From Pseudomonadota bacterium (GTDB lineage: Bacteria > Pseudomonadota > Gammaproteobacteria > Xanthomonadales > Rhodanobacteraceae): a stretch of DNA of 64,000 nt. The stretch lies in contig JAJYQO010000047.1 in assembly GCA_021794575.1 (NCBI GenBank), forward strand, positions 1 to 64,000, read 5' to 3'. The translations under genes were made by a program, and so were the position numbers. Below, one piece after another: positions 2,894 to 26,156 of the stretch (its first letter is position 1; every line of letters starts with the position of its first letter). A model generated the notes under the pieces. That model was given only the letters and a program-made list of their open reading frames with translations, was not told the DNA's origin and did no database searches.

Positions 2894-3017
2894 GATCCCC
2901 CTCCTGGCGGCGCATCATGCCACCCGCGGCGATCGCACGCGTTGACGGCAGGCACTGGTCGCGGCTGGTGAAGTGTGTGTTTACGGGCCTGTTCACGCCC
3001 CCGGCACCGCGGCTGCC

Positions 3018-3023
3018 CATAAT
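3018..3023 (+). promoter_or_regulatory. -10 box CATAAT 7 nt upstream of the yceI start, leaderless-type
   Basis: CATAAT is followed by only seven bases before the ATG at 3031, and no Shine-Dalgarno sequence is visible. This spacing would put the transcription start at or next to the A of the start codon. The same TAnnnT-N6/7-ATG layout recurs at several other genes in this window. No good -35 match is seen. Confidence 0.45.
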
Positions 3024-3030
3024 CGGCCGC

Positions 3031-3684
3031 ATGTCGATTGGCACACTCCCCTTGCCGGGCCGGCGGCGCGACGGCGCTCTGCTGCTGGCCTTGCTGCTGC
3101 TGGCGCCGCTGGCGCATGCCGGCGAATATCGTTTCGATCCGGTGCACAGCAGCGTGGTGTTTTTCGTCGATCACGACGGTTACAGCGACGCGGTCGGGCG
3201 CCTGAAAATCGCACGCGGCTGGTTCCGTTTCGACGAGCGCGACTGGGCCGACTCGAAAGTCGTGGCCGACATCGCGCTGGATTCGGTGGACATGGGCGAC
3301 AAGAGCTGGGACCGCGTGGTGGCCGGCGCCGATTTCCTCGATGCCAAGGCGCATCCCTACGCGCACTTCGCCAGCACCTCGGTGGAAAAGACCGGCGCCG
3401 ACACCGGCATCCTGTACGGCCAACTGACCCTACGCGGCCACACCGAGGGCATCGCTTTTCCGTTCCGCCTCAACAAACGCGCCTTCACCATCTACGGCTT
3501 CCACACCGTGGCCGGCTTCACCGGGCTGGCCAGCGTCGACCGCAAGCTGTGGCACATGGGTGCCTTCGACAGCGTGGTGGGCGTGAAAGTAAAGGTGCTG
3601 CTGGAGATCGAGGGTATCGCCGACGACAACGCGCAACACGCTTATGCGGCCGCCGCGGCCCGCGACAAAGGAGCCAAACCGTGA
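3031..3684 (+). CDS. YceI-family periplasmic protein
   Basis: Predicted 217-residue secreted protein of the YceI family, lipocalin-like beta-barrels that bind isoprenoid or amphiphilic molecules such as polyprenyl quinones. ATG 3031 is chosen because it starts directly at a signal peptide (hydrophobic LLLALLLLAPLAHA, cleavage before GEYRFDP); upstream in-frame starts would add a non-signal extension. Mature-domain features include FDPVHSSVVFFVDH near the N-terminus and LTLRGHTEGIAFPF in the core. It is the first gene of a three-gene unit. Its stop overlaps the GTG start of a cytochrome b561, and a second, divergent YceI follows. YceI next to cytochrome b561 is a common pairing and suggests a role in quinone or membrane redox chemistry. 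The exact ligand cannot be read from the sequence. Confidence 0.85.
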   Translation: MSIGTLPLPGRRRDGALLLALLLLAPLAHAGEYRFDPVHSSVVFFVDHDGYSDAVGRLKIARGWFRFDERDWADSKVVADIALDSVDMGDKSWDRVVAGADFLDAKAHPYAHFASTSVEKTGADTGILYGQLTLRGHTEGIAFPFRLNKRAFTIYGFHTVAGFTGLASVDRKLWHMGAFDSVVGVKVKVLLEIEGIADDNAQHAYAAAAARDKGAKP

Positions 3685-4265
3685 ACTGGCGTAGCACGCA
3701 CGCACATTGGGGCGTACTGGCCAAGGCCTTCCACTGGCTCGCGGCGCTGGGCATCTTCGCGCTGGCCGCCATCGGCCTGTACATGGTGGGCATGCCGCTG
3801 GGGCTGGCCAAGCTGAAGATGTATCTGCTGCACAAGGCGCTCGGCATCACCGTGTTGGCGCTGGTGCTGCTGCGGCTGCTGTGGCGCTTGTTCGACCGCC
3901 ATCCGCGCTACCCCCCGGGCATGCCGCGCTGGCAGGTGGGCGTCGCGCACGCCAGCCACGCGCTGCTGTATCTGCTGCTGCTGGCGGTACCGATCTCGGG
4001 CTGGGTCTACAACTCGGCCTCGGGCTTTCCGCTGCCCTGGTTCGGACTGGTCGACCTGCCGGCCATCGCGCCGGTGTCCAAGCCGCTGGCGCATCTGGCG
4101 CTGACCGTGCACGAGACTGCGTTCTGGACGCTGGCTGCGCTGGTGCTGCTGCATGTCGCCGCCGCCATCGAACACCACGTGCGCCAGCGCGACGCCGTGC
4201 TGGCGCGCATGCTGCCGTGGCGCACGCGGCGCGCGCATGCCATTTCCGACGGAGAAAATCCATGA
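3681..4265 (+). CDS. Cytochrome b561 (di-heme membrane protein)
   Basis: A 194-residue integral membrane cytochrome of the bacterial b561 (CybB/YodB) family, which moves electrons between the quinone pool and periplasmic acceptors. Four hydrophobic helices are visible. Histidines fit heme ligation: HWLAALGIFALAAIG and LLHKALGI in the first two helices, HASHALLYLLLL in the third, and HETAFWTLAALVLLHVAAA in the fourth. The GTG start at 3681 is preferred because AAAGGAG lies 7-8 nt upstream and the GTGA overlaps the stop of the preceding yceI. The stop overlaps the ATG of the next yceI in the same way, so the three genes are almost certainly co-transcribed and translationally coupled. Confidence 0.9.
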   Translation: MNWRSTHAHWGVLAKAFHWLAALGIFALAAIGLYMVGMPLGLAKLKMYLLHKALGITVLALVLLRLLWRLFDRHPRYPPGMPRWQVGVAHASHALLYLLLLAVPISGWVYNSASGFPLPWFGLVDLPAIAPVSKPLAHLALTVHETAFWTLAALVLLHVAAAIEHHVRQRDAVLARMLPWRTRRAHAISDGENP

Positions 4266-4825
4266 AAGCTTCGTTGGCCTCCATGCTGCTGCTGGGCGCG
4301 CTGCTGGCCCCGGCCGCGCAGGCGCAGGCGCAGGACTGGACCGTGCAGCCCGGCAGCACGCTGGGCTTCGCGACCACCTTCGAGGGCGTCAAGTTCGCCG
4401 GCGCGTTCAAGCAGTTCAGCGCGCGAATCGCTTTCGACTCCGCGCATCCGCAGGCGTGCACGCTGGACGCGACCATCACGCTGGCCAGCGCCGATACCGG
4501 CAATGCCGACCGCGACAAGATGCTGCCGACGGCGGACTTCTTCGATGTGGCCCGATTCCCCACGGCCACTTATCGCGGCGCCGACTGCACGCCCGCGGGT
4601 CCGGGACGCTACAGCGCGCAGGGCACGCTGACGCTGCGCGGCATCAGCAAGCCGGTGCCGCTGACGCTGCAGTGGCGGATGCAGGGCAACGGAGCGCTGC
4701 TGACCCTGGACGCCAACGTGCCGCGACTGACCTTTGGCGTGGGCAGCGGACAATGGGCCGACCCCAGCGCCATCGGTCTGGATGTAGCGGTGCACGGCGT
4801 GCTGAAGCTTACGCCGGCCAAATAA
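4262..4825 (+). CDS. YceI-family periplasmic protein (second paralog)
   Basis: A 187-residue secreted YceI-family protein. A signal peptide (MLLLGALLAPAAQAQAQ) precedes the barrel, which shows typical family segments (GSTLGFATTFEGVKFAGAF, LPTADFFDVARFPTATY, GTLTLRGISKPVPLTL). It is only distantly similar to the YceI encoded at 3031. The DADRDKML/FFDVARFPTATY region is closer to the classic YceI consensus, whereas the upstream copy is more divergent. Its ATG overlaps the cytochrome b561 stop by ATGA. Two different YceI proteins flanking one cytochrome b561 suggest distinct lipid or quinone ligands serving one membrane redox module. It ends 16 bp before the convergent RDD gene. Confidence 0.88.
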   Translation: MKASLASMLLLGALLAPAAQAQAQDWTVQPGSTLGFATTFEGVKFAGAFKQFSARIAFDSAHPQACTLDATITLASADTGNADRDKMLPTADFFDVARFPTATYRGADCTPAGPGRYSAQGTLTLRGISKPVPLTLQWRMQGNGALLTLDANVPRLTFGVGSGQWADPSAIGLDVAVHGVLKLTPAK

Positions 4826-4841
4826 CCGTGGCCGCAGCGGT

Positions 4842-5351
4842 TCAACGCTGCAGACGCACCAGGCGCGTGCCGCTGAGGCGGTCGTGCAGGGTGCGGCGCG
4901 CGCGGTCGAACGGCAGCGCGGCGTAATCGATCACCCACAGCGCCGCCACCGCCAGCAGCGCCACGCGCGGCGACGCGACCCGACCCAGCAGCAGGGCCAG
5001 CAGCGGCGCCGCGGCCAGCAGCGCGCGCAGCAACGCGCGCGGCAGGCGTGGCGGCGCACCGTCCGCGGCCAGCACGCGCAGTCGCCAAGCGCGTGCGCCG
5101 ATGCTCTGCCCGCCGCGCCACCACGACAGCACGAAATAGCCGGTCAGCACGGCCAGTTGCAGCCCCTGGTACGCCAGCGGCACCTGTGCGTGGCCGCCGC
5201 GCATCGTCACCAGCCGCGCATGCGTGGCCAACTGCGCCAGCAGCCCCACCACCAGCAGCAGCGCCAGCGCGATCAGCAGGTCGTACAGCAGCGCGGCCAG
5301 ACGCGGTGCGATGGATGCGGGCGACGGGGCGGAATCGGTGTCGGCGGACAT
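4842..5351 (-). CDS. RDD-family membrane protein
   Basis: A 169-residue inner-membrane protein of the RDD family, function poorly defined; some members affect ion exchange. The start at 5351 (MSADTDSAPSPASIAPRLAA) is chosen because the RDD domain begins directly after it; an upstream in-frame extension has no family-like sequence. The arginine of the family name lies in SIAPRLAALLYD, and an acidic pair follows in the usual place (YDLLIALALLL). Two to three further hydrophobic helices follow, then WWRGGQSIGARAWRLRVL, another typical RDD segment, and a C-terminal DRLSGTRLVRLQR. It is divergent from xerD with 46 bp between start codons, and convergent with the YceI operon. Confidence 0.85.
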   Translation of the reverse strand: MSADTDSAPSPASIAPRLAALLYDLLIALALLLVVGLLAQLATHARLVTMRGGHAQVPLAYQGLQLAVLTGYFVLSWWRGGQSIGARAWRLRVLAADGAPPRLPRALLRALLAAAPLLALLLGRVASPRVALLAVAALWVIDYAALPFDRARRTLHDRLSGTRLVRLQR

Positions 5352-5397
5352 GCGCGAAAGGCTTGCGGCGCGCGCGCGCCGGGGCCAGCATCGTGCC

Positions 5398-6363
5398 ATG
5401 GATTCGACCACCGCCCGGCGCCGTGCGCCGCATGTGCGCGCAGACACTGCTCCGGCCACCGACGCGAGTATCGCCGTTGCCGCCGAGATCGAGCGCTTTC
5501 TCGAACGCCTGTGGGCCGAGGACGGCCTGGCCGACCGCACGCTGACCGCGTACCGCCAGGATCTGACCGGCTTCGCGCGTTGGCTGGCGCCGCAGGGCAT
5601 CGCGCTGGCGCAGGCCGGCCGCGAGCACATCCTGCGCTATCTGGGCGAACGCGGCGCACAGGGCATCAAGGCGCGCAGCAATGCGCGGCTGATCTCCACG
5701 CTGCGCCGCTACCACGCCGCGCGCCAGAAGCAGGGCGCCGGCGGCGCGGACCCCACCGCGCTGCTGGAATCACCCAAGCTGCCGCGCGGCCTGCCCAAGG
5801 CGCCCGGCGAGCGCGAGGTGGAGGCGCTGCTGGCCGCGCCGGACGTAGCCACCCCGCTGGGCCTGCGCGACCGCGCCCTGCTGGAGCTGATGTACGCCTG
5901 CGGGCTGCGCGTCAGCGAACTGGTCACCCTGCCGCTGGCCGCGCTCAACCTGCGCCAGGGCGTGCTGCGCGTGGCCGGCAAGGGCGGCCGCGAACGCCTG
6001 GTGCCGATCGGCGCGATGGCGCTGGACTGGATCGAGCGCTACCTGCGCGAGGCGCGGCCACGGCTGGCCGGCACGCAGCGCAGCGAGGCGCTGCTGCTCA
6101 CCCGGCGCGGCACCGGCATGACCCGGCAGATGGCCTGGACGCTGATCAAGCGCCACGCCATCGGCGCCGGTATTCCCGCCCAGCGCATCTCGCCGCACGT
6201 GCTGCGTCACGCCTTCGCCACCCACCTGCTGAACCACGGCGCCGACCTGCGCGCCGTGCAGATGCTGCTCGGCCACGCCAGCCTGTCGACCACGCAGATC
6301 TACACCCTGGTCGCGCGCGAAGGACTCAAACGGCTGCATGCGCAGCATCATCCGCGCGGGTGA
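5398..6363 (+). CDS. xerD: Tyrosine recombinase XerD
   Basis: Site-specific recombinase that, with XerC and FtsK, resolves chromosome dimers at dif. This is a 321-residue protein, slightly longer than E. coli XerD (298) owing to an N-terminal extension of about 30 residues after ATG 5398. The core-binding domain (IERFLERLWAEDGLADRTL...) is followed by the catalytic domain. The full active site is visible: Arg171 (GLRVSEL), Lys195 (GKGGRER), His267 and Arg270 (HVLRHAF), His293 (LGHASLS) and the nucleophile Tyr302 (QIYT). The segment HGADLRAVQMLLGHASLSTTQIYT is closer to XerD than to XerC. It is a single gene with no phage context, so a housekeeping recombinase rather than an integrase. Confidence 0.93.
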   Translation: MDSTTARRRAPHVRADTAPATDASIAVAAEIERFLERLWAEDGLADRTLTAYRQDLTGFARWLAPQGIALAQAGREHILRYLGERGAQGIKARSNARLISTLRRYHAARQKQGAGGADPTALLESPKLPRGLPKAPGEREVEALLAAPDVATPLGLRDRALLELMYACGLRVSELVTLPLAALNLRQGVLRVAGKGGRERLVPIGAMALDWIERYLREARPRLAGTQRSEALLLTRRGTGMTRQMAWTLIKRHAIGAGIPAQRISPHVLRHAFATHLLNHGADLRAVQMLLGHASLSTTQIYTLVAREGLKRLHAQHHPRG

Positions 6364-6392
6364 TGCGCGATCGACCCGGGAACACCGCCGGC

Positions 6393-6430
6393 TCCCGGCT
6401 CGGCCCTGCGGGCCGTCCGGGATGACGTCA
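6393..6430 (+). repeat. Dispersed intergenic repeat, single copy (CGGCTCGGCCCTGCGGGCCG family)
   Basis: The gap between xerD and maiA (6364-6573) contains one copy of a short repeat with core CGGCTCGGCCCTGCGGGCCG followed by TCCGGGATGAC. The GGCCC-TGC-GGGCC part is a small hairpin. Nearly identical copies are clustered at 63311-63641 and, in the opposite orientation, at 15476-15514. A decayed second copy (CCGTCCGGGATGGCG) follows at about 6447. Nothing else recognisable is in this gap, and no terminator with a U-tract is seen. Confidence 0.75.
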
Positions 6431-6573
6431 ACAAAGAAGGGACGCGCCGTCCGGGATGGCGTACTGGCCCGACGCTACGCGCCATCCGGGAGAACCCACT
6501 GGCGAGTGGCCCGGCTTCCGGAGCAGGGGCGCAACGGGCCGGCCCCGGATTCCGTCCTGGAATCGCCGGGGAG

Positions 6574-7239
6574 TCACCCGCGCGGTGCGTCCGGCTGCAC
6601 CTCCGGCGTGGCGCGTCGGAAGGCTTCCAGCGCCATGCAATTGGCGAAAATGCGGCGCACGGTGGGGAACGGCGCCAGATCCACGCCCCAACGCTGCGCG
6701 CTGAACACCTGCGGCACCAGGCAGCAGTCGGCCAGGGTGGGACGGTCGGCCTCGCTGAAGCTGCCGGTGGAGGGGTGCTCGGCCAGCATGGTCTCCAGCG
6801 AGGTGAAGCCGCTGCCGATCCAGTGCTGCATCCAGCGCCGGCGCTCGACCTCGGGCACCGAGAACTCGCGCTCCAGATACTTCAGCACACGCTGGTTGCC
6901 CAGCGGATGCATATCGCAGGCGATGGCCTGCGCGACCGAGCGCACGCGCGCGCGATCGCGCGCCAGCGGCGGCAGCAGCTTGGCTTCGCCGTCGTAGGCC
7001 TCGTCCAGGTATTCGATGATGGCCAGCGACTGGCGGAACACACGCTCGCCGTCCAGCAGCGTGGGCACCAGGCCCTGCGGATTGAGGCGGCGGTAGTCGT
7101 CACGGTGCTGCTCGCCATCGCCGGCAACCAGGTTGACCGTGCGCAGTTCATAGGCCAGCCCCTTGAGATTGAGGGCAATGCGCACACGGAAGGCGGCGCT
7201 GGAACGCCAGTAGCTGTAAAGGACCAGCGGGCTGCTCAT
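6574..7239 (-). CDS. maiA: Maleylacetoacetate isomerase (zeta-class glutathione transferase)
   Basis: A 221-residue GST-fold enzyme that isomerises maleylacetoacetate to fumarylacetoacetate with glutathione in tyrosine/homogentisate breakdown. The N-terminal thioredoxin-like domain carries the zeta-class motif in its proteobacterial form (YWRSSAAFRVRIALNLKGL). There the Ser-Ser pair is kept and the Cys of the eukaryotic SSCSWRVRIAL motif is Ala. NPQGLVPTL and QSLAIIEYLDE give the glutathione-binding cis-proline and acidic residue. The helical C-terminal domain includes the conserved ADCCLVPQVF. It is a stand-alone gene here; hmgA and fah are not adjacent. The start ATG 7239 is the only one that keeps the N-terminal beta strand intact. 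Confidence 0.92.
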   Translation of the reverse strand: MSSPLVLYSYWRSSAAFRVRIALNLKGLAYELRTVNLVAGDGEQHRDDYRRLNPQGLVPTLLDGERVFRQSLAIIEYLDEAYDGEAKLLPPLARDRARVRSVAQAIACDMHPLGNQRVLKYLEREFSVPEVERRRWMQHWIGSGFTSLETMLAEHPSTGSFSEADRPTLADCCLVPQVFSAQRWGVDLAPFPTVRRIFANCMALEAFRRATPEVQPDAPRG

Positions 7240-14957: not shown

Positions 14958-15356
14958 ATGACCAGCGGCATCCTTCTGGTCACCCATGTCGGCATTGCCC
15001 ATGCGCTGATGGACGCCGCACGCCATGTGCTTGGCCGGTTGCCGCCCGAACTGGACAGCGTCGAGATCGCCGCCGACGCCGACCCCGAGCAAGCCCTGCG
15101 CGAAGCCGCCGCGCATGCCGCCAGCCTCGACCACGGCGAAGGCGTGCTGGTGCTCTCCGATCTGTACGGCGCCACGCCCTGCAACATCGCCACGCGCCTG
15201 GGCGAACAGAGCGCGCGCCTGCGCTGGGTGGCCGGGCTGAACCTGTCGATGCTGCTGCGCGTGCTCAATTACGCCGACAAGCCGCTGGACGATTTGGCCA
15301 GGATCGCCGTCAGCGGCGGCCATACCGGCATCCGCGCCGATCACGCGGGGCATTGA
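14958..15356 (+). CDS. PTS mannose-family EIIA protein
   Basis: A 132-residue single-domain EIIA of the mannose/fructose class. The phosphorylatable histidine is His10 in LLVTHVGIA, and DLYGATPCNIA is the other family landmark. No EIIB, EIIC or EIID is encoded nearby, so the phosphorelay EI to HPr to this EIIA is likely regulatory. Possible outputs are control of RapZ, HprK or transporters. It follows rapZ after 3 bp and is the last gene before a 540-bp gap rich in repeats. Confidence 0.92.
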   Translation: MTSGILLVTHVGIAHALMDAARHVLGRLPPELDSVEIAADADPEQALREAAAHAASLDHGEGVLVLSDLYGATPCNIATRLGEQSARLRWVAGLNLSMLLRVLNYADKPLDDLARIAVSGGHTGIRADHAGH

Positions 15357-15404
15357 GGCCCGCGGGAGCGGACCGGGATTCGCGCGACCGGCAGACCCCT
15401 CTTC

Positions 15405-15585
15405 TGATGCCATCCCGGACGATGCGCAGTACCAGGCCGGTTCGTCATCCCGGACGGCCTTCTCCTTCTTTTGATGTCATCCCGGACGGCCCGCAGGGCC
15501 GAGCCGGGATCCAGACCGGTGCCCCGCAAGCACCACTGGATCCCCGGTTCGCGCTGCGCACGCCCGGGGATGACGGCATAAAGAA
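15405..15585 (-). repeat. Dispersed repeats in the 540-bp gap after EIIA
   Basis: The 15357-15896 gap holds at least three copies of the TCATCCCGGACGGC-type repeat, in the opposite orientation to those at 6393 and 63311. The best one, 15476-15514, begins GTCATCCCGGACGGCCCGCA and ends AGCCGGGATCCAG. A longer palindromic unit (GGATCCCCGG...CCCGGGGATGAC) follows at about 15539-15570. Such units often lie at transcript ends. Beyond them the gap has only a possible small frame at 15771. Confidence 0.7.
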
Positions 15586-15770
15586 TTCATCCTGCGCGAG
15601 CCGTCCATCGAGGTTCTCGCGGACGGCGCGCGATGCCGGGCCGGGAGCCGGCAGCCGGCGCGGTGGAAACCGGTCGCCATGCGCGCCGCCTGCGCACTGT
15701 GCCGGCCGCGCGCACACCGGATTTCGCGGTGCAGCGCGCCCGCCGCCGCGGCATTGGCTAGCATCGGCGC

Positions 15771-15887
15771 ATGACGACGCGACCCTCCGGCAGCGCCGGC
15801 CGCCGCGGCGCACACGCGTGGTATTCGCCGCCGGCGGACACGCGGTGCGCGGTCATCGCCTGCCGGCGCGCGCGGCATCTGCCCTGA
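15771..15887 (+). CDS. Possible 38-residue small protein, no recognised family
   Basis: An ATG at 15771 opens a 38-codon frame (MTTRPSGSAGRRGAHAWYSP then a Cys/Arg-rich tail) that stops 9 bp before the symporter start; GAGG lies between. A -10-like TAGCAT sits exactly 6 nt upstream of the ATG, matching the leaderless layout seen elsewhere in this window. Symporters of this family are often preceded by a small DUF3311 membrane protein, but this frame has no membrane helix and does not look like one. It may be a coupling leader, a decayed DUF3311 gene or chance. Confidence 0.25.
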   Translation: MTTRPSGSAGRRGAHAWYSPPADTRCAVIACRRARHLP

Positions 15888-15896
15888 GGATCCGCA

Positions 15897-17447
15897 ATGC
15901 GCTGGAGCGCCTTTGCCGTATTTATCGTCCTGTTCGCACTGGTGACCGGGCTGGGCTTCGTGGCGGCGCGCTGGCGCCGCGCCGACCTGAGCCAACTGCA
16001 CGAATGGGGGTTGGGCGGGCGCCGCTTCGGCACCGTGGTGACCTGGTTCCTTCTGGGCGGCGATCTGTACACCGCCTACACCTTCATCGCCGTGCCGGCG
16101 CTGGTGTTCGGCGCCGGCGCGATGGGCTTCTTCGCGCTGCCCTACACGGTGATCGCCTACCCGCTGGTGTTCCTGGTGCTGCCGCGGCTGTGGCGCGTGG
16201 CGCACCGGCACAACTACGTCACCGGCGCCGATTTCGTGCGCGGCCGCTACGGCAGTCCGACGCTGGCGCTGCTGGTGGCGCTGACCGGCATCCTCGCCAC
16301 CATGCCCTACATCGCGCTGCAGCTGGTGGGCATGGAAGTGGTGATCGCGGCGCTGGGTTTTCCGATGGGCGGCATGCTGGGCGACCTGCCGCTGATCGTG
16401 GCCTTCGTGATCCTGGCCGCTTACACCTACACCAGCGGCCTACGCGCGCCGGCGCTGATCGCGGTGGTCAAGGACGCGCTGGTGTACCTGACCGTGCTCA
16501 CGGTGGTGATCGTGGTGCCGTGGAAGCTGGGCGGCTTCGCGCCGATTTTCGCCGCGGTGCCGGCCGGCAAGCTGCTGCTGGCCACGCCGCCCGCGCACAG
16601 CCTGGGCCAGTACAGCGCCTTCGCCAGCCTGGCGCTGGGCTCGGCGCTGGCGCTGTTCTGCTATCCGCATGTGCTGACTGGCGTGCTGGCCGCCAGCAAC
16701 GCGCGTACGCTGACCCGCAACATGGCGCTGCTGCCGGCCTTCAGCCTGGCGCTGGGCCTGCTGGCGCTGCTCGGCTACATGGCGCTGGCGAGCGGCGTGG
16801 ACAAACTACCCGAGTTCGCGCCGTACTTCGCGCGCTTCAAGGCCAGCTTCGCGGTGCCGGCGCTGATCCTGCACAGCTTCCCGCAGTGGTTCGCCGGCGT
16901 GGCGCTGGCCGCCATCGCCATCGGCGCGCTGGTGCCCGCGGCGATCATGTCGATCGCGGCGGCCAACCTGTGGACGCGCAGCATCTACCGCGAGTACCTC
17001 AATCCGCGCTGCACGCCGGCGCAGGAATCCGGCCAGGCCAGACTGGCCTCGCTGGTGGTGAAGTTCGGTGCGCTGCTGTTCGTGCTGCTGCTGCCGACCA
17101 GCTACGCCATCAACTTCCAGCTGCTGGGCGGGGTATGGATCATCCAGATCCTGCCGGCGCTGCTGTTCGGCCTGTACACGCGCTGGTTCCATCGCGGCGC
17201 GCTGATCACCGGCTGGGCGGCCGGCATGCTGACCGGCACGCTGATGGCGCTGGACCTGCGCTTCGCGGGCTCGGTGTTCACGCTGCACGCGCTGGGCTGG
17301 ACGGTGCCGGGCTACGCGGCGCTGTATGCGCTGCTGGTGAACATCGCGGTCGGCGCGCTGGCCACGCCGCTGCTGCGCGCGCTCGGTGCCGGCGAGGGCA
17401 GCGACGCGACGCGCGCCGAAGACTACCGGCCCGCCACCGCCGAATAG
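15897..17447 (+). CDS. Sodium/solute symporter (SSS family)
   Basis: A 516-residue polytopic membrane protein with about 13 hydrophobic helices, related to the MctP-like monocarboxylate branch of the SSS family. Family features include GRRFGTVVTWFLLGGDLYTAYTF in the first helices (sodium-site region), VLPRLWRVAHRHNYVTGADFV, and ALAAIAIGALVPAAIMSIAAANLWTRSIYREY, the conserved helix-8/9 motif. The substrate cannot be fixed; pyruvate, lactate or short organic acids are plausible. It sits between EIIA and HPr in an otherwise conserved regulatory PTS cluster, which suggests PTS control of this carrier, by inference. A small coupled frame may precede it. Confidence 0.88.
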   Translation: MRWSAFAVFIVLFALVTGLGFVAARWRRADLSQLHEWGLGGRRFGTVVTWFLLGGDLYTAYTFIAVPALVFGAGAMGFFALPYTVIAYPLVFLVLPRLWRVAHRHNYVTGADFVRGRYGSPTLALLVALTGILATMPYIALQLVGMEVVIAALGFPMGGMLGDLPLIVAFVILAAYTYTSGLRAPALIAVVKDALVYLTVLTVVIVVPWKLGGFAPIFAAVPAGKLLLATPPAHSLGQYSAFASLALGSALALFCYPHVLTGVLAASNARTLTRNMALLPAFSLALGLLALLGYMALASGVDKLPEFAPYFARFKASFAVPALILHSFPQWFAGVALAAIAIGALVPAAIMSIAAANLWTRSIYREYLNPRCTPAQESGQARLASLVVKFGALLFVLLLPTSYAINFQLLGGVWIIQILPALLFGLYTRWFHRGALITGWAAGMLTGTLMALDLRFAGSVFTLHALGWTVPGYAALYALLVNIAVGALATPLLRALGAGEGSDATRAEDYRPATAE

Positions 17448-17516
17448 CCGGCCAAGGCTGGACCGCCGCGGCGCGAACCCGCATGCTAGACGTCCGTTTG
17501 CCTGCCCCACGTCGCC

Positions 17517-17786
17517 ATGCCCGAACGCGAGACCGTCATCAGCAACCGCCTGGGCCTGCATGCGCGCGCCGCCGCCAAGCTGGTGCAGACCGTACAGGGG
17601 TTCAAGTCCGGCGTCTGGCTGCGCGCGCGTGGCCATGAGGTCGATGCGCGCAGCATCATGGGCGTGATGATGCTGGCCGCCGGCACCGGCACGCCGCTGA
17701 CCGTGCGCGCCGAGGGCAGCGACGCCGAAGCCGCGCTGGCGGCGGTGGTGGATCTGATCGAGCGCAAATTCGACGAGGGCGCCTGA
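17517..17786 (+). CDS. ptsH: Phosphocarrier protein HPr
   Basis: An 89-residue HPr carrying phosphate from EI to EIIA. His15 lies in GLHARAAAKLV, the EI phosphorylation site. Ser46 lies in ARSIMGVMML, the HprK target and its recognition helix. Both regulatory sites are intact, matching the HprK gene at 13129. The product starts 4 bp before EI. The 69-bp gap from the symporter has no clear terminator, so it may be part of the same transcript. Confidence 0.95.
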   Translation: MPERETVISNRLGLHARAAAKLVQTVQGFKSGVWLRARGHEVDARSIMGVMMLAAGTGTPLTVRAEGSDAEAALAAVVDLIERKFDEGA

Positions 17787-17790
17787 GCCG

Positions 17791-19539
17791 ATGTCGCCGA
17801 ACGCCGCCCGCCGGGTGCTGGAGGGCCAGCGCGCTGCGCCGGGCATGGCGCTGGGCCGCGTGCGACTGCAACTGCCGCACCGGTACAGCATCGACGCATC
17901 GCCGCTGCCCGCCGATGCGATCGAGCAAGAACTGGCGCGTCTCGACGCCGCGCTGGCGCACGCGCGCGGCGAACTGACCGAGCTGCGCCAGCGCCTGCAC
18001 GGCGCGCTGGCGCGCGAGGCGCAACCGTTCCTGGACACCCACGCGCTGATCCTCGACGATCCCGAACTGCGCGGCAGCCTGGTCGATCTGATCCGCAAGG
18101 GCCGTTACCGCGCCGGCGCCGCGCTGGTGGCGCAGCGCGACCGCCTGATCGAAGTGTTCCGGCGCATGGACGACGCCTACTTGCGCGCACGCGAGGACGA
18201 CCTGGCGCAGGTGATCGCGCGCGTGCTGGACGCGCTCGAACATGATGGCCGCAGCGAGGAACGCCGCATGGCCGCGCGCCTCGGCGAAATCCTGGTGGCC
18301 GAGAACCCCTCGCCGGCCGAACTGGCCAGCCTGGCCGAGCGCGGCCTGTGCGGCGTGATGGCGACGGGCGGCAGCGCCTATTCGCACGCGGCGATCCTGG
18401 CGCGCAGCCTGCATCTGCCGATGCTGTGCAGCGTGCAGGACGCGGAAACCGTGCTCGGCGACGGCGATCTACTGCTGCTGGATGGCGAGGGCGGCTTCGC
18501 CATCGCGCACCCGGCCGCGCAGGATCTGGCCACGCTGCGCCAGTGGCAGCGCGCGCAAGCCGCACGCCCGCGCGTCGCGCCAGTGCCGGCCGCACCGGCA
18601 CGCACCCGCGATCATGAACAGGTCGCGCTGTACGCCAATGCAGAGTTGCCCGGCGAAATCGCCGAAGCGCGCGCGCTGGGCGCGATGGGCGTGGGCCTGT
18701 ACCGCACCGAGCTGCTGTATCTGCGCCAATCGGCGCTGCCCGGCGAGGAGGAGCAGTACGCCGCGCTGCGCGGGCTGATGCTGGCGCTGGACGGCGCGCC
18801 GGCGACACTGCGCACGCTGGACCTGGGCGCCGACAAGGCCATCGGCACCGGACTGGCGATGCCGACCGAAGCCAACCCGGCGCTGGGCGTGCGTGGCGTG
18901 CGGCATGCCCTGCGCCATCCGGCAATCCTGCGCACGCAACTGCGCGCCATGCTGCGCGCGGCGCAGCTGGGTCCACTGCGCATCCTGCTGCCGATGGTCA
19001 CTGTGGCCGAGGAAATTGCCGCGGTGCGCGCGCACGCGGCGGAATGCCTGGCCGAACTGCACGCCGCGGGCGTGCCGGCGCCGGCGGCACTGCCGCCGCT
19101 GGGCGCCATGGTCGAAGTGCCGGCCGCCGCGCTGGGCGTGCGCACGCTGCTGCACGAAGCCGATTTCTTGGCCATCGGCAGCAACGATCTGGCGCAGTAC
19201 GTACTGGCCGCCGACCGCAACCTGGGCACGCTGGCCGGACTCTACGATCCGCGCCACCCGGCGTTGCTGCGGCTGATCGCTTTCGTGACCAGCGCCGCGC
19301 GCCGTGCCGGCAAACCGCTGTCGATCTGCGGCGAGATCGCGGGCGACGCCACCGCGCTGCCGCTGCTGCTGGCCGTGGGCATCCGCGAGCTGTCCATGTT
19401 GCCGGCGCGCCTGCCGGCAGCGCGCGCGGTGGTGGAAGCGGCGCATTGCGCGCAATTGCGCGCGCACCTGCCGCGACTGCTGCGTGCCGGCTCGCGCGCC
19501 GAGATCGAGGCGCTGCTGTGCACGCTGCAGCAGCCGTGA
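17791..19539 (+). CDS. ptsI: Phosphoenolpyruvate-protein phosphotransferase (Enzyme I)
   Basis: A 582-residue Enzyme I that autophosphorylates from PEP and passes phosphate to HPr. The phosphohistidine is in GGSAYSHAAILARS (~residue 190). The PEP-binding C-terminal barrel has GLYRTELLYL, the PEP-utilising signature DFLAIGSNDLAQYVLAADRN, and the catalytic Cys in LSICGEIAGD. Length matches E. coli EI (575). It has no N-terminal GAF domain, so it is not the PtsP paralog. It closes the hprK-ptsI cluster. No EIIC-type transporter lies in the window, consistent with a PTS that senses carbon or energy rather than importing sugar. Confidence 0.95.
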   Translation: MSPNAARRVLEGQRAAPGMALGRVRLQLPHRYSIDASPLPADAIEQELARLDAALAHARGELTELRQRLHGALAREAQPFLDTHALILDDPELRGSLVDLIRKGRYRAGAALVAQRDRLIEVFRRMDDAYLRAREDDLAQVIARVLDALEHDGRSEERRMAARLGEILVAENPSPAELASLAERGLCGVMATGGSAYSHAAILARSLHLPMLCSVQDAETVLGDGDLLLLDGEGGFAIAHPAAQDLATLRQWQRAQAARPRVAPVPAAPARTRDHEQVALYANAELPGEIAEARALGAMGVGLYRTELLYLRQSALPGEEEQYAALRGLMLALDGAPATLRTLDLGADKAIGTGLAMPTEANPALGVRGVRHALRHPAILRTQLRAMLRAAQLGPLRILLPMVTVAEEIAAVRAHAAECLAELHAAGVPAPAALPPLGAMVEVPAAALGVRTLLHEADFLAIGSNDLAQYVLAADRNLGTLAGLYDPRHPALLRLIAFVTSAARRAGKPLSICGEIAGDATALPLLLAVGIRELSMLPARLPAARAVVEAAHCAQLRAHLPRLLRAGSRAEIEALLCTLQQP

Positions 19540-19932: not shown

Positions 19933-20622
19933 ATGAATGACACGCCAAACGCGAAAGGCAGCAGTACCGGGCCCTACCTCATGGACTCGATCCGCCCGGA
20001 TGTCCAGACCGATCCGAAGCGCCGGACATTCCTGCTGGCCGGCGCCGGCGTGCTGGGTGCCGGCGCAGTCGGCCTGTTCGCCGACATCCTGATCGACAAC
20101 ATGAACCCGGGCAAGGCGGTGCAGGCGGAAGGCGCACCGATCGAAGTCGACATCAGCCAGATGCAACCCGGCCAACTGCTGCTGGTGGAATGGAAGAAAA
20201 AACCGGTGTGGATCCTGCGCCGCGAGCCATGGATGCTGCAGACCCTGGCCGAACCAGGGCTGCTGCGCCGGCTGAAGGATCCGCACAGCAGGCAGAACCA
20301 GCAGCCGGATGCGGACTTCGTCAACGGCAACTACCGCGCGCTGCGTCCGGATGTCTTCATCGCCGTCGCGCTGTGCACGCACATGCAGTGCATTCCGGAC
20401 TATCGCCCGGCGCCGCACACGGTGACGCCGTGGTGGCCCGGCGGCTTCCACTGCGCCTGCCACGGCTCGATGTACGACTTCTCGGCGCGGGTGATCGAAG
20501 GCTCGCCGGCGCCGCTGAATATCCCGATTCCCCCGTACTACTGGAAAACCGGCCAGGTGGTGAGCATCGGCGAAATCAACAAGGCGGGCGGCGACAAAAA
20601 CTGGTCGCCGGACATCTGGTAG
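19933..20622 (+). CDS. petA: Rieske iron-sulfur subunit of a cytochrome bc1-type complex
   Basis: A 229-residue ubiquinol-cytochrome c reductase Rieske protein. The N-terminus has a twin-arginine motif (KRRTFLLAGAG) leading into a membrane anchor helix. Cluster box 1 is CTHMQC (Cys148, His150, Cys153) and box 2 CACHGS (Cys174, Cys176, His177). All four Fe ligands and both disulfide cysteines are kept, but Leu-Gly of the usual CTHLGC is Met-Gln and the Pro of CPCHGS is Ala. The long loop between the boxes is like other gammaproteobacteria. It is the first gene of the operon behind the FNR-like site, followed after 28 bp by a c4-type cytochrome. The altered residues near the cluster could shift its redox potential. 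Confidence 0.92.
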   Translation: MNDTPNAKGSSTGPYLMDSIRPDVQTDPKRRTFLLAGAGVLGAGAVGLFADILIDNMNPGKAVQAEGAPIEVDISQMQPGQLLLVEWKKKPVWILRREPWMLQTLAEPGLLRRLKDPHSRQNQQPDADFVNGNYRALRPDVFIAVALCTHMQCIPDYRPAPHTVTPWWPGGFHCACHGSMYDFSARVIEGSPAPLNIPIPPYYWKTGQVVSIGEINKAGGDKNWSPDIW

Positions 20623-20650: not shown

Positions 20651-21574
20651 ATGACCTCGATCACCGCAGCGCGCGGCACCCGGTGTTTCGTCGCAGCGGC
20701 GCTGCTGGGCGTTTTCGCCTCCGGCGCCGTCGCCGCCTCGAGCGATTATCACGGGCTGCCGCCACCGCCCGTCGCGGCGCGGCAGGGCGCGAAACTGACC
20801 GCCGTATGCTCGGCTTGCCACGGCGCCACCGGCGTCTCCGTCGCGCCCGCTTATCCGAATCTGGCCGGCCAGCAATACAACTACATCCTCAAGGAGCTCG
20901 AGGATTTCCGCAGCGGCAAGCGCACGTCACCGATCATGAGCGGGATGGCCATGACCATCCCGGCCGCACCGGGCAATCGGGACCTCAAGGACATCGCCGC
21001 GTATTTTTCGCAGCAGCCGCTGCCGGACACTGTCGCGGCCGCACCTGCGCCGGCAGCGCAGCTGAAGCTGGGTCGGCAGATCTACACGCAGGGTCTGCAA
21101 GGACGCGGGGTGCCCGCCTGTGCCGCCTGTCATGGCCTGGGCGGCGGCGGCAACGGCCCCATGGCCATCCCGGCGTTGGCGCTGCAGCACGAGACCTACG
21201 TGCTGGCGCAGCTCGAGCTGTTCGCCTCCGGCGCACGCAGCAACGCACCCGGGCACGTCATGCACAGCATCGCCAAGCACATGAACAAAACGCAGCAGAC
21301 CGCGGTGGCCGCCTACGTTCGGCAGCTCGATCCACGAACCACTCTGGGCATCGGACCCAAGACCTACAGCCAGTACGTGCGCCAGCAGATGGCCGGCCCG
21401 GCGCCCCCGACACCGCCGGGTACAACCCATGCGCCGGTTTCCGCGGCGCCTGCGAAGCGGGCTGCCCCGGGACCTGCTGCGGCGGTCTCCAGCACACACA
21501 TCGAGGCACCGACCGGACGCGCCCAGCCCGGCGCGGCCGATGCCGCCACCCGCAGAGAGTCAGGCCATGACTGA
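20651..21574 (+). CDS. Di-heme cytochrome c4-like protein
   Basis: A 307-residue exported protein with a signal peptide (to about ALLGVFASGAVAAS) and two class I cytochrome c domains. The heme motifs are CSACH (53-57) and CAACH (157-161), each followed by the gly-rich and Met-bearing segments usual for c4. A proline/alanine-rich C-terminal tail of about 75 residues (from TPPGTTHAPVSAAPAKRA) is extra compared with c4 and may be a flexible linker. It is encoded between petA and petB, with its stop overlapping petB by 8 nt, so it is probably a dedicated electron partner of this bc complex. In Acidithiobacillus pet operons a c4 cytochrome (cycA) is also co-encoded, though in a different order. 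Confidence 0.9.
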   Translation: MTSITAARGTRCFVAAALLGVFASGAVAASSDYHGLPPPPVAARQGAKLTAVCSACHGATGVSVAPAYPNLAGQQYNYILKELEDFRSGKRTSPIMSGMAMTIPAAPGNRDLKDIAAYFSQQPLPDTVAAAPAPAAQLKLGRQIYTQGLQGRGVPACAACHGLGGGGNGPMAIPALALQHETYVLAQLELFASGARSNAPGHVMHSIAKHMNKTQQTAVAAYVRQLDPRTTLGIGPKTYSQYVRQQMAGPAPPTPPGTTHAPVSAAPAKRAAPGPAAAVSSTHIEAPTGRAQPGAADAATRRESGHD

Positions 21575-23000
21575 AACGAGTCGATCGCGCACGCTGCGCG
21601 TGCTGGACTGGTTCGACCGGCGGCTGCCGCTCACGGCGCTGTGGCGCACCCAGCTCAGCGAATATCCGGCGCCGAAGAACTTCAACGTGTGGTACCTGTT
21701 CGGCTCGCTGGCGCTGCTGGTGCTGGTGCTGCAACTGGCCACCGGCCTGTTCCTGGCCATCCACTATCAGCCCAATCCGCAACTGGCCTACTGGTCGGTG
21801 CTGCGCACCATCCAGCGCGATTCGCACTGGGGCTGGCTGATCCGCGACATGCACGTCGTCGGAGCTTCGGCTTTCTTCGTGCTGGTCTATCTGCACATGT
21901 ACCGCGGCATCATGTACGGCTCGTACAAGAAGCCGCGCGAACTGCTGTGGCTGATCGGCATCTTCATCTATCTGGCGCTGGCCGCCGAGGCGTTCCTGGG
22001 CTACCTGCTGCCCTGGGGACAGATGTCGTACTGGGGCTCCGCGGTGGTGACCAACTTCGTTACCGCGATTCCGGTGATCGGCAAGCCGATCGCGCAATGG
22101 CTGCGCGGCTCGTTCGTGATCGGCCTGCCCACGCTGAACCGGTTTTTCATCTTCCACGTGTTCCTGATGCCGGTGCTGCTGCTGGCGCTGGTGCTGGTGC
22201 ACATGATCGCGCTGCACCAGGTCGGTTCGAACAACCCGGACGGCGTCGAGATCCACGACAACGTCAACGAGACGGGATGGCCGCGTGATGGCATTCCGTT
22301 CCATCCGTACTACACGGTGAAGGATCTGTTCGGGGTCAGCGCGTTCTTCGTGGTCTTCTTCTGGTTCGTGTTCTACCGCCCGGATGGCTGGGGTTTCCTG
22401 CTCGACAAGCTGAACTACACACCGGCCAACATCCTGCACACGCCCAGCGACATCCACCCGCTGTGGTTCTTCCTGCCGTTCTACGCGATGCTGCGCGGCG
22501 TGCCGGACAAGCTGTACGGCATCCTGGCATTCGCCGGCTCATTCGCGCTGCTGGCCTGCCTGCCGCTGCTGGACCGCAATCCGGTGCGCTCGATCCGCTA
22601 CCGCTCGCCGCTATACAAGCTCAATATCCTGGCCATGCCGCTGTCGTTCCTGTGGCTGGGCTACATCGCCCATGGCTTTGCCACCGAACACAACATGGTC
22701 TACGGCCTGCACGTGACGGAAATCTTCTACGCCACGTTCCTGGTACTGCCGTTTTTCAACAAGCCGCGCTCGCCGCGGGCCACCTTGACCTGGCTGATCC
22801 TCGCCGAGGCCGTGGTCTGGATGATCGACGTCTGGATGTATTCCATCCACGCCCATGGCTGGGGCCTGATGCTGCTGACCGACTGGATCCCGTCGCTGTA
22901 CCTGCTGCTGCTGTTCGGCATGGCCCTGCTGCGACCCGCGTGGACCCGCGACGCCGCGTCTTTGCCGGAGCGGCTGACCGCCGGCGGAATTTTCCACTGA
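21567..23000 (+). CDS. petB: Cytochrome b subunit of bc1-type complex with altered Qo motif
   Basis: A 477-residue cytochrome b with eight or more helices plus a C-terminal extension of hydrophobic helices. The four heme ligands are in place: His96/His110 in MHVVGASAFFVLVYLH and His197/His212 in FHVFLMPVLLLALVLVH. LHQVGSNNPDG is the classic loop after helix D. The Qo-site motif that is normally PEWY reads PLWF (298-301), so the conserved Glu that takes part in quinol oxidation is Leu. The bases are unambiguous (CCG CTG TGG TTC). This implies modified Qo chemistry or operation in the reverse direction. It overlaps the upstream c4 gene and is separated from petC by an 86-bp gap holding a strong hairpin. 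Confidence 0.93.
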   Translation: MTETSRSRTLRVLDWFDRRLPLTALWRTQLSEYPAPKNFNVWYLFGSLALLVLVLQLATGLFLAIHYQPNPQLAYWSVLRTIQRDSHWGWLIRDMHVVGASAFFVLVYLHMYRGIMYGSYKKPRELLWLIGIFIYLALAAEAFLGYLLPWGQMSYWGSAVVTNFVTAIPVIGKPIAQWLRGSFVIGLPTLNRFFIFHVFLMPVLLLALVLVHMIALHQVGSNNPDGVEIHDNVNETGWPRDGIPFHPYYTVKDLFGVSAFFVVFFWFVFYRPDGWGFLLDKLNYTPANILHTPSDIHPLWFFLPFYAMLRGVPDKLYGILAFAGSFALLACLPLLDRNPVRSIRYRSPLYKLNILAMPLSFLWLGYIAHGFATEHNMVYGLHVTEIFYATFLVLPFFNKPRSPRATLTWLILAEAVVWMIDVWMYSIHAHGWGLMLLTDWIPSLYLLLLFGMALLRPAWTRDAASLPERLTAGGIFH

Positions 23001-23086: not shown

Positions 23087-23893
23087 ATGAAACTGTCATT
23101 GACGAGCGTGCTGCAACGGTGGACCAGACTCGGCGCGATGCTGCTGCTGACCGCGCTGGCGGGCAGCGCCTGGGCATCGGTGCAGACCACGCAGCCGCCG
23201 CTGCGCCCGATCACGATCGACCTGCATGACCAGGCGGCTTTGCGCACGGGCGCCCTGTACACCCTGCACATGTGCGTCGCCTGCCACGGCATCCAGGGCG
23301 CGCGTTACAGCGAACTGCCGCCGGTGCTCGGACTCAGCAAAGAAGACTTCCTCAAATACATTTCGACCAACGGCCGGCACTACCACGACACCATTACCAG
23401 CAACATGTCCGAAGCCCTGATGATGAAGTTCGTGGACATGGCGCCGCCCGATCTCACCGAGATCGCCCACCGGCGCTCGCCGGCCTGGCTGTACACGTAC
23501 CTGACCTCGTTCTATGCCGACCCCGCGCGCCCGACCGGCGCCAACAACGTGGTGTTCTACAACGTCAGCATGCCGGACGTGTTCGCGACGATGCAGGGCC
23601 TGCAAAAACCCGTCATGGTCGACGGCCTGCGCTTCGGCAGTCCGGCCAAAATCGCGGTGGGCGTGCAGCCGCTGACCGCCGGCACGATGTCGCGCGCGCA
23701 ATTCGACCAGACGGCGAAGGACATCGTCACGTTCCTGTACGCGGTGGCGCACCCGCACCAGCAGGAGCGCATGCGGCTGGGGCCATGGATCATCGGCCTG
23801 TTCGTGATGCTCTCGGTGCTGACCTATCTGATCTACAGGCTGTACTGGGCACGGGTCATCACCGGCAAGCAACGCTGGTGGCGGATCCGATGA
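23087..23893 (+). CDS. petC: Cytochrome c1
   Basis: A 268-residue membrane-anchored c-type cytochrome of the bc1 complex. The signal peptide (to about SAWA) precedes the heme motif CVACH (63-67). Cytochrome c1 landmarks follow: MAPPDLTEIAHRRSPAWLYTYLTSFYADPARPTG, with NNVVFYNVSMPDVFATMQG in the region of the axial Met. A C-terminal membrane helix (IIGLFVMLSVLTYLIYRLYW) anchors it. The ATG at 23087 is chosen for the signal peptide. Its stop overlaps the next small gene by ATGA. Confidence 0.92.
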   Translation: MKLSLTSVLQRWTRLGAMLLLTALAGSAWASVQTTQPPLRPITIDLHDQAALRTGALYTLHMCVACHGIQGARYSELPPVLGLSKEDFLKYISTNGRHYHDTITSNMSEALMMKFVDMAPPDLTEIAHRRSPAWLYTYLTSFYADPARPTGANNVVFYNVSMPDVFATMQGLQKPVMVDGLRFGSPAKIAVGVQPLTAGTMSRAQFDQTAKDIVTFLYAVAHPHQQERMRLGPWIIGLFVMLSVLTYLIYRLYWARVITGKQRWWRIR

Positions 23894-24410: not shown

Positions 24411-25196
24411 ATGAATGATCCCGGCCAAGCCGTTCCGGCGTATTCCGACTTGCTGTCCTACGCGCCGCGCGCCGATCTGCTGGCCGGCCGCGTGCTTCTG
24501 GTGACCGGCGCGGCCGATGGCATCGGGCGCGCCGTGGCAATGACCTACGCCCGGCATGGCGCGCGACTGGTTCTGCTGGACTGGAACCGCAAGGGACTGG
24601 TGGCGCTGCAGCGCGAACTGGGCGAAGCGGGGCATGCCGAGCCGCTGCTGTGTCCGGCGGACCTGTCGGGCATCACCGTGGCCGGGGTGCGCAAGATCGT
24701 CGACGGCATCGCGACCCGCTGCGGCGTCCTCGATGGCCTGCTCAACAATGCCGGCTGGATCGGCGCCCTGGCGCCGTTCGAGCACTATGCGCCCAATACC
24801 TGGCTGAAGGTGATGAACATCAACCTGGCGGCGCCTTTCTTTCTCACGCAATGGTGCATGCCGCTGCTGCGGAAGTCGCCTGACCCGGCGCTCGGGTTCT
24901 CTCTGCACGCGACGGCGCACGCATTCTGGGGTGGCTTCGCCATGGCCAAGGCGGCGCAGGAAGCGCTGCTGCACGTCCTCGCCGAGGAGTACCACCTGCA
25001 GGGCGCCGCCGCGGTGCGCGTGTTCGGCATCGATCCGGGACCGGTGCTGACGGCGGGGCGGCGCCAGCATTTCCCCGGCGAGGCGCCGGGCGCACATCCG
25101 GCCGCCGAGGACGTCACCGGCCCCTATCTATACGCCATGGGCCCGGATGCGGTGCGCAGCAGTCCGCTGCTGCTGCGTTCGCGCGGCGCCGTGTGA
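24411..25196 (+). CDS. Short-chain dehydrogenase-like protein lacking the catalytic tyrosine
   Basis: A 261-residue SDR-fold protein. The nucleotide site TGAADGIG (32-39) and NNAG (112-115) are intact. The active-site Ser164 and Lys180 are present, but the YxxxK tyrosine is Phe176 (FAMAK; the codon is TTC). Without the tyrosine the normal hydride-transfer chemistry should be severely impaired, so a structural, regulatory or sensor role is possible. It lies 161 bp downstream of the small pet gene on the same strand; that gap has an 8-bp inverted repeat (24346-24353/24380-24387). The Acidithiobacillus pet operons also contain an SDR gene (sdrA) next to the bc1 genes. It is convergent with the LysR gene. 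Confidence 0.85.
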   Translation: MNDPGQAVPAYSDLLSYAPRADLLAGRVLLVTGAADGIGRAVAMTYARHGARLVLLDWNRKGLVALQRELGEAGHAEPLLCPADLSGITVAGVRKIVDGIATRCGVLDGLLNNAGWIGALAPFEHYAPNTWLKVMNINLAAPFFLTQWCMPLLRKSPDPALGFSLHATAHAFWGGFAMAKAAQEALLHVLAEEYHLQGAAAVRVFGIDPGPVLTAGRRQHFPGEAPGAHPAAEDVTGPYLYAMGPDAVRSSPLLLRSRGAV

Positions 25197-25217: not shown

Positions 25218-26156
25218 TCAGCGCGCGCGACGGCGCGCTGGACCCGTCGCGCCATCGGCCGCGGCGTTGGGCGGCGCGGCGAGTGCGGTGTCCAGCAGCG
25301 CCTGCAGCAGCGCGCTGCGATAGCGTCCGCGCGCCAGCACCAGCGAGAGCTGGCGCTGCAGATCCAGAAACGGCGTGGGCAGGATTTCCAGCTCGCCGGC
25401 GGCCAGTTCGGCGCGCACCGCCACGCGCGGCAGGCAGGCGATGCCGAGGCCGGCCAGCACCGCCTGCTTGATCGCCTCGCTGTTGCTCAGTTCGAGCACG
25501 GTGATGCCCGGAGGCAGACGCGTCAGCTCGCGCTCGACCTGCGCGCGCGTGGCCGAGCCGTGCTCGCGCAGGATCCAGCACGCGCCGGCGAAATCCGCGG
25601 GCCGCAGCCGTCGCCGCTGCGTCAGCGGGTGCCCGGGTCGCGCGCACACCGCCAGCGCGTCGTCGCGCCAGGGCAGCACTTCGAGTCCGGTGCGCGCGGC
25701 CGGCCCCTCGACGCAGCCGACATCCAGCGCGTAATCGAGCACGCGCTCCAGCACGGTGTCGGTGTTGTCCACCCCGAGCCGTACCGAGGCCCGCGGATGC
25801 CGGGCGGTGAAACCGCCCAGCAGTTCGCCCACACGGTAGCTGCCCACGGTGTTGCTGGCGCCGATACGCAGCTCGCCCAGCAGTTCGTCCGGCCCGGCGG
25901 CGGCGCTGCGCTCCAGCGCCTGCAGACGCGCCAGCACCTCGCGCGCCTGCGGCAGCAGCGTGCGTCCGCGCGCGTTGAGATGCAGGCGCTGGCGCGCGCG
26001 GTCGAACAGCGCCACGCCGATGCGCCGCTCCATGCCGGCCAGCGCCATGCTGGCGGCGGGCTGCGTCAGATGCAGTTGTTCGGCGGCGGCGCGCACGCTA
26101 CCCAGCGCGGCCACCGCAACGAACACTTCGAGCTGGCGCGGACTGATGCCGATCAT
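25218..26156 (-). CDS. LysR-family transcriptional regulator
   Basis: A 312-residue LysR regulator. The N-terminal winged helix-turn-helix runs from ISPRQLEVFVAVAALGSVRA through LTQPAASMALAGMERRIGVALFDR. A substrate-binding domain follows (LGELRIGASNTVGSYRVGELL, LEVLPWRDDALAVCARPGHPL, IKQAVLAGLGIACLPRVAV), most like the CysB/CbbR-type branch. The effector is unknown. It is transcribed toward the SDR gene and away from ettA, so no divergent target is apparent. A -10-like TAAGCT lies 6 nt upstream of the ATG (26163-26168), with no Shine-Dalgarno sequence, again fitting leaderless translation. Confidence 0.9.
   Translation of the reverse strand: MIGISPRQLEVFVAVAALGSVRAAAEQLHLTQPAASMALAGMERRIGVALFDRARQRLHLNARGRTLLPQAREVLARLQALERSAAAGPDELLGELRIGASNTVGSYRVGELLGGFTARHPRASVRLGVDNTDTVLERVLDYALDVGCVEGPAARTGLEVLPWRDDALAVCARPGHPLTQRRRLRPADFAGACWILREHGSATRAQVERELTRLPPGITVLELSNSEAIKQAVLAGLGIACLPRVAVRAELAAGELEILPTPFLDLQRQLSLVLARGRYRSALLQALLDTALAAPPNAAADGATGPARRRAR

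Follow-up and report, generated by a model that had tools for sequence, protein, structure and literature searches.

The cytochrome b gene petB in the window (the whole 64,000-nt stretch of DNA analysed here; the genome that carries it is referred to as G000) encodes the Qo motif PLWF, while the textbook motif of bc1 complexes is PEWY. This PLWF is a real Qo motif and is fixed in its lineage. We regard it as probable that PetB with its PLWF is the cytochrome b of a second, petI-like bc1 complex in a putative Fe(II)-oxidising autotroph which also possesses an ordinary PVWY bc1, and that this second complex is likely to work uphill.

The codons GAC ATC CAC CCG CTG TGG TTC at 22449-22469 read D295-I-H-P-L-W-F301 in a 477-aa ORF, the last four of them (CCG CTG TGG TTC, 22458-22469) being P298 L299 W300 F301. 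PetB exceeds the Pfam cut-offs for both halves of cytochrome b, Cytochrome_B (PF00033, 211.8 bits, cut-off 27.2) and Cytochrom_B_C (PF00032, 97.8 bits, cut-off 20.7). In gapless alignments PLWF coincides with PVWY in the P. aeruginosa bc1 (PDB 8smr, IAPVWYF) and with PEWY in Arabidopsis (8bel, IVPEWYF), and as the 8smr homologue is approximately 50% identical the alignment of the motif is unambiguous. The first-pass annotation had placed PLWF at residues 298-301 and noted the absence of the Glu, and translation and the exact alignment to the PEWY position agree on both; PetB was also searched for a PEWY equivalent elsewhere, and no PEWY-like site was found beyond PLWF.

The heme ligands H96, H110, H197 and H212 are invariant across 192 aligned proteins. 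The same is true for R93, Y146, M153 and N283, with Y306 being nearly invariant, and GSNNPDG is found at residue 220. DIHPLWF is also encoded in three genomes of the same genus (G005, G008, G011), in the Rhodanobacter MAG L033 and in G319, and the motif codons differ synonymously among those relatives. Since the motif is kept in these five near relatives with synonymous differences, and petB has a dN/dS of 0.06-0.14 within the genus, a sequencing error at the motif is excluded. The earlier description of PetB as an intact, non-decayed protein is borne out by the four heme histidines, the GSNNPDG loop and the purifying selection on petB.

Table 1. Features of the pet locus, with positions in the window.
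Feature	Position	Strand	Basis or remark
petA, Rieske iron-sulfur protein, CTHMQC...CACHGS	19933..20622	+	TIGR01416 172.7 bits (cut-off 97.4); cluster motif survey
Diheme c4-like cytochrome c, two CxxCH, overlaps petB start	20651..21574	+	PF00034
petB, cytochrome b, 477 aa	21567..23000	+	Pfam PF00033, PF13631, PF00032
ef-loop D280-K281-L282	22404..22412	+	Alignment; R. capsulatus roles from PMC10583091
D295-I296-H297, just N-terminal of the motif	22449..22457	+	Relatives mostly H-I-A/V
Qo motif PLWF, residues 298-301 of PetB	22458..22469	+	Translation, alignment
petC, cytochrome c1, one CxxCH	23087..23893	+	PF02167
Small membrane protein, 119 aa	23890..24249	+	No Pfam/NCBIfam match
Short-chain dehydrogenase (SDR), comparable to sdrA of Acidithiobacillus pet operons	24411..25196	+	PF00106
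LysR-type regulator, opposite-strand neighbour	25218..26156	-	PF00126, PF03466

The surrounding genes comprise a bc1 complex (petABC), with a Rieske protein that has its cluster ligands and scores above the TIGR01416 cut-off, and a cytochrome c1 above that of PF02167 (Table 1). The diheme c4 and an SdrA-like SDR beside petABC make up a gene set of the petI type in a differing order, as predicted from the genes. The complex looks intact and functional to judge from its sequences, and a second pet operon in the same genome is a canonical petABC with PVWY. The 119-aa membrane protein adjoins petC in six loci (window genus, L033 and G319) and is a candidate accessory subunit, and the LysR-type protein is a possible regulator of the pet operon. 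In G000 and G005 the SDR gene adjoins the pet cluster; in L033 it lies upstream, and it was not seen in the loci of G008 and G011. The operon set minus the SDR is present in G008, G011 and G319; G341 possesses petA-c4-petB-petC. Directly upstream of the pet operon (14958-19539) we observed PTS-like phosphotransfer genes (EIIA-like, HPr-like and enzyme I-like), between which lies a gene resembling that of a sodium/solute symporter, all names coming from reading the translations.

By analogy of gene content, and not of PetB sequence, the closest published arrangement is petI of A. ferrooxidans, cycA1-sdrA1-petA1-petB1-petC1 (PMC2754497), which is Fe(II)-induced and has been assigned to uphill electron flow (PMC2754497; PMC10654088). 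In both loci a diheme cytochrome c and an SDR accompany the bc1 genes; both occur in addition to a second bc1 and belong to genomes with a Cyc2-like protein and RuBisCO. The window differs in its order petA-c4-petB-petC-119aa-SDR, in the extra 119-aa protein and in that no rusticyanin was found above the cut-off in G000. The PLWF clusters of G319 (72% identity) and G341 (53-54%) share with the window cluster a clade (support 99), the order petA-c4-petB-petC and DIHPLWF, and like G000 their genomes hold Cyc2 and RuBisCO. They come from different families, and petC of G341 is without an adjoining 119-aa protein or SDR.

G000 contains a gene for the RuBisCO large subunit next to a divergently oriented LysR gene, the complex I genes nuoD, nuoF and nuoI, and, on G000:C89, a candidate for a Cyc2-like cytochrome-porin fusion, which has AVPMFARETGQPCAACH. 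The Cyc2 signature is AXPXFAR[Q/K][T/Y] five aa before a single CXXCH, together with a porin C-terminus (PMC8406198). The candidate reads AVPMFARET and then GQPCAACH, so that FARET compared to FAR[Q/K][T/Y] is one residue off the signature, and it shares 36% identity with the search query, which was the rus-linked G341 homologue. A published network links the Cyc2 of Acidithiobacillus with Rhodanobacteraceae homologues (PMC10654088). Reading 47% of the G000 genome revealed no terminal oxidase. In G011, approximately 2 kb separate cyc2 and the PLWF pet cluster, which are on opposite strands. Of the 13 genomes of the genus (several of them incomplete), 12 have a homologue of Cyc2 and 4 have the pet cluster, which means that the window-type pet cluster is not required for having Cyc2.

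We further report that the related pattern [DE]I[HR]PLW[FY] was verified in nine genomes (G000, G119, G157, G197, G235, G312, G319, G341 and G408). Seven of these nine have Cyc2 compared to 28 out of the 369 gammaproteobacterial genomes overall, with a Fisher p of ~2e-7 that ignores relatedness; counted by family, Cyc2 is present in six out of seven families with this pattern. Ordinary PVWY or PLWY motifs are found in other genomes with Cyc2. Matches in G334 and G252 were rejected as not being cytochrome b, while the G157 match is one.

It is the Cyc2-like protein, RuBisCO, complex I and the petI-like operon, and not the motif, that make an uphill transfer of electrons from Fe(II) plausible. 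Going by gene content, Fe(II) respiration would involve this complex, whose putative partner is the diheme cytochrome c. On this context we lean towards an uphill run, in which quinone would be reduced to supply complex I and CO2 fixation, as the most likely role of the complex. PLWF by itself does not set the direction. The suggestion made earlier, that loss of the Glu points to reverse operation, finds no support: most of the genomes searched have a non-Glu bc1 and no other bc1, and the R. capsulatus variant E295V still works forward (PMC10583091).

The main rival to the uphill role is an ordinary forward role of the second complex, e.g. with reduced sulfur compounds, in which PLWF would be neutral and the cell would switch between its complexes depending on the substrate. 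The sole bc1 complexes of family f43, which carry PLWF and adjoin Thiomargarita in the tree, are in agreement with a forward role, as is petII of A. ferrooxidans, which is sulfur-induced and also comes with c4 and sdrA (PMC2754497). Since petII has both, c4 and SDR neighbours do not settle the direction. A forward role is less easily reconciled with Cyc2 in six of the seven families with the wider pattern and with the position of cyc2 near the pet cluster in G011, and we consider it possible rather than expected.

To place the motif among its relatives we used a protein collection picked by similarity to PetB of the window; the counts therefore describe its relatives and not all bc1 complexes. 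The 147 beta- and gammaproteobacterial cytochrome b proteins have PVWY (116), PLWY (17), PLWF (12), PTWY (1) or PAWY (1), and PEWY is absent from all of them. The alphaproteobacterial-type proteins possess PEWY in 30 out of 30 fetched. In a tree for which the motif was masked and the PEWY proteins served as the root, PEWY lies on one side and all beta/gamma proteins on the other (support 100). Loss of the Glu, as far as these sequences tell, is the rule in the beta/gamma part of the tree and not peculiar to the window enzyme. The initial statement that nearly all bc1 proteins have PEWY was not confirmed for this part of the tree, although it fits the alphaproteobacterial type, and a Leu at the second motif position, which had been noted as unfamiliar, is common in both PLWY and PLWF.

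PLWF itself appears in three groups of the rooted tree, namely the window clade (seven proteins including those of G319 and G341, support 99), family f129 and family f43, and it has had at least three origins. According to the survey and the tree Val and Leu were exchanged many times at position 2. The rarer step is the change of Tyr to Phe at position 4; Leu at position 2 is not the unusual letter. PLWF is a rare but recurrent lineage variant. A pattern search for PLWF plus flank matched 8 out of 369 gammaproteobacterial genomes, with one match for the backward control pattern, so that the matches exceed what chance would give; the match in G310 was discarded as chance, the protein not being a cytochrome b. 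True PLWF cytochrome b occurs in 7 genomes out of the 286 that encode this type of cytochrome b in the gammaproteobacterial sample, and in this respect the motif is uncommon, as had been supposed. G111 and G255 have PLWF in their sole bc1, and a Cyc2 homologue was not found in either. Because these are single PLWF complexes without Cyc2, PLWF alone is no marker of iron oxidation or of direction. A RuBisCO search gave no match in the f129 genomes searched. An in-frame TGA in petB of G054 and G064 was considered as recoding and rejected, since it sits past the real stop. Kao and Hunte (2014) reportedly described PVWY in beta- and gammaproteobacteria and special patterns in acidophiles, and PLWF may already be tabulated there; a literature text search on PLWF and other Qo motif variants returned nothing relevant.

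The residues around the motif differ as well. The Rieske cluster loop docks at the Qo site, and it reads CTHMQC in the window genus and G319, CTHLQC in G341 and CTHLGC in nearly all others. The Rieske protein at 19933-20622 has CTHMQC/CACHGS in place of CTHLGC/CPCHGS, a replacement which among the loci read is confined to the window clade, and which could represent a shift in redox potential or docking. In R. capsulatus the proton network consists of E295 (of PEWY), H276, D278 and Y147; the E295V variant retains a forward turnover of 110 s-1 compared to 380 s-1, and its function is lost only if H276 is also removed (PMC10583091). In our alignment D280 of PetB corresponds to H276 and L282 to D278. 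The H276 column holds Glu in 144 out of 147 PVWY/PLWY proteins, Asp in seven out of seven proteins of the window clade, and always H, E or D in PEWY proteins, and a 3-residue insertion directly precedes it in the non-PEWY proteins. Proteins of the window clade have Leu in the D278 column. In this clade and in f129, Asp takes the place of the TPxHI histidine (column 295), and column 297 holds His.

The Qo site has thus changed as a set: HIAPVWY to DIHPLWF, the ef-loop Glu to Asp, and the Rieske CTHLGC to CTHMQC. As residues near the motif changed too, proton release may well be rewired. Read from the alignment to R. capsulatus, the proton on the heme bL side would leave via Y146 and the ef-loop carboxylate D280, which would replace the PEWY Glu, and H297 possibly assists its exit. 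Compared to the P. aeruginosa bc1 (PVWY type, PDB 8smr; ~50% identity), PetB shares the fold, the heme ligands, the 3-residue ef-loop insertion, an acidic ef-loop residue and a hydrophobic residue where PEWY has its Glu. It differs in having Leu/Phe instead of Val/Tyr, Asp instead of Glu at 280, DIH instead of HIA at 295-297, and the Rieske loop CTHMQC.

It might be argued from these changes that the window enzyme lost the Glu as a special adaptation, which would slow quinol oxidation and favor quinone reduction. The rarity of PLWF (7/286), the Rieske-loop (CTHMQC) and ef-loop changes that accompany it in the window clade, and the enrichment of the related [DE]I[HR]PLW[FY] set in Cyc2 genomes would all agree with this, but the beta/gamma relatives collected are without the Glu throughout, mostly in a single bc1, G111 and G255 carry PLWF in a sole bc1 without Cyc2, and E295V of R. 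capsulatus works forward (PMC10583091). We therefore regard a special adaptation as quite improbable. Rather doubtful, too, is the idea that DIHPLWF, the ef-loop Asp and the Rieske CTHMQC/CTHLQC together form a Qo site adapted to reducing quinone with high-potential electrons from Fe(II), by which an uphill bc1 would be recognisable from sequence. If the co-varying set did mark uphill bc1 complexes in iron oxidisers, it would provide a sequence test for the physiological direction, which to our knowledge is currently assigned by growth experiments alone. The role of the PEWY Glu in quinol oxidation is still debated, and natural Glu-free enzymes with joint changes in cytochrome b and the Rieske loop represent natural experiments on the proton exit path.

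In the tree, petB of the window groups with proteins of other families, at a great distance from its own family's canonical petB. This position and the presence of the cluster in only 4 out of 13 genomes of the genus suggest that it was horizontally acquired. The same patchy occurrence and probable acquisition could be expected of a relic or a decaying duplicate, a reading which the intact ligands, the full operon kept in relatives and the low dN/dS make very hard to believe. One genome of the genus, G010 (listed as 99% complete), gave no cytochrome b match at all, unlike its relatives with their one or two bc1 operons; this is either an assembly gap or a true loss.

A further observation concerns G341, which possesses a third, split cytochrome bc complex (L158, G341:C3:226001-246000; 3374-5353 on the minus strand, with neighbours at 1466-6782). 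Here a single 659-aa ORF joins the PF00032 C-terminal half of cytochrome b to an NAD(P)H/FAD oxidoreductase that carries a BFD [2Fe-2S] domain (Pyr_redox_2, Rubredoxin_C, Fer2_BFD), and the equivalent of the motif is DVRPLFF. The Rieske loop of this third complex is CTHMCC, and the complex adjoins rusticyanin-, cox- and cyc2-like genes. In an iron oxidiser, a fused protein of this kind could provide a direct link between quinone chemistry and NAD.
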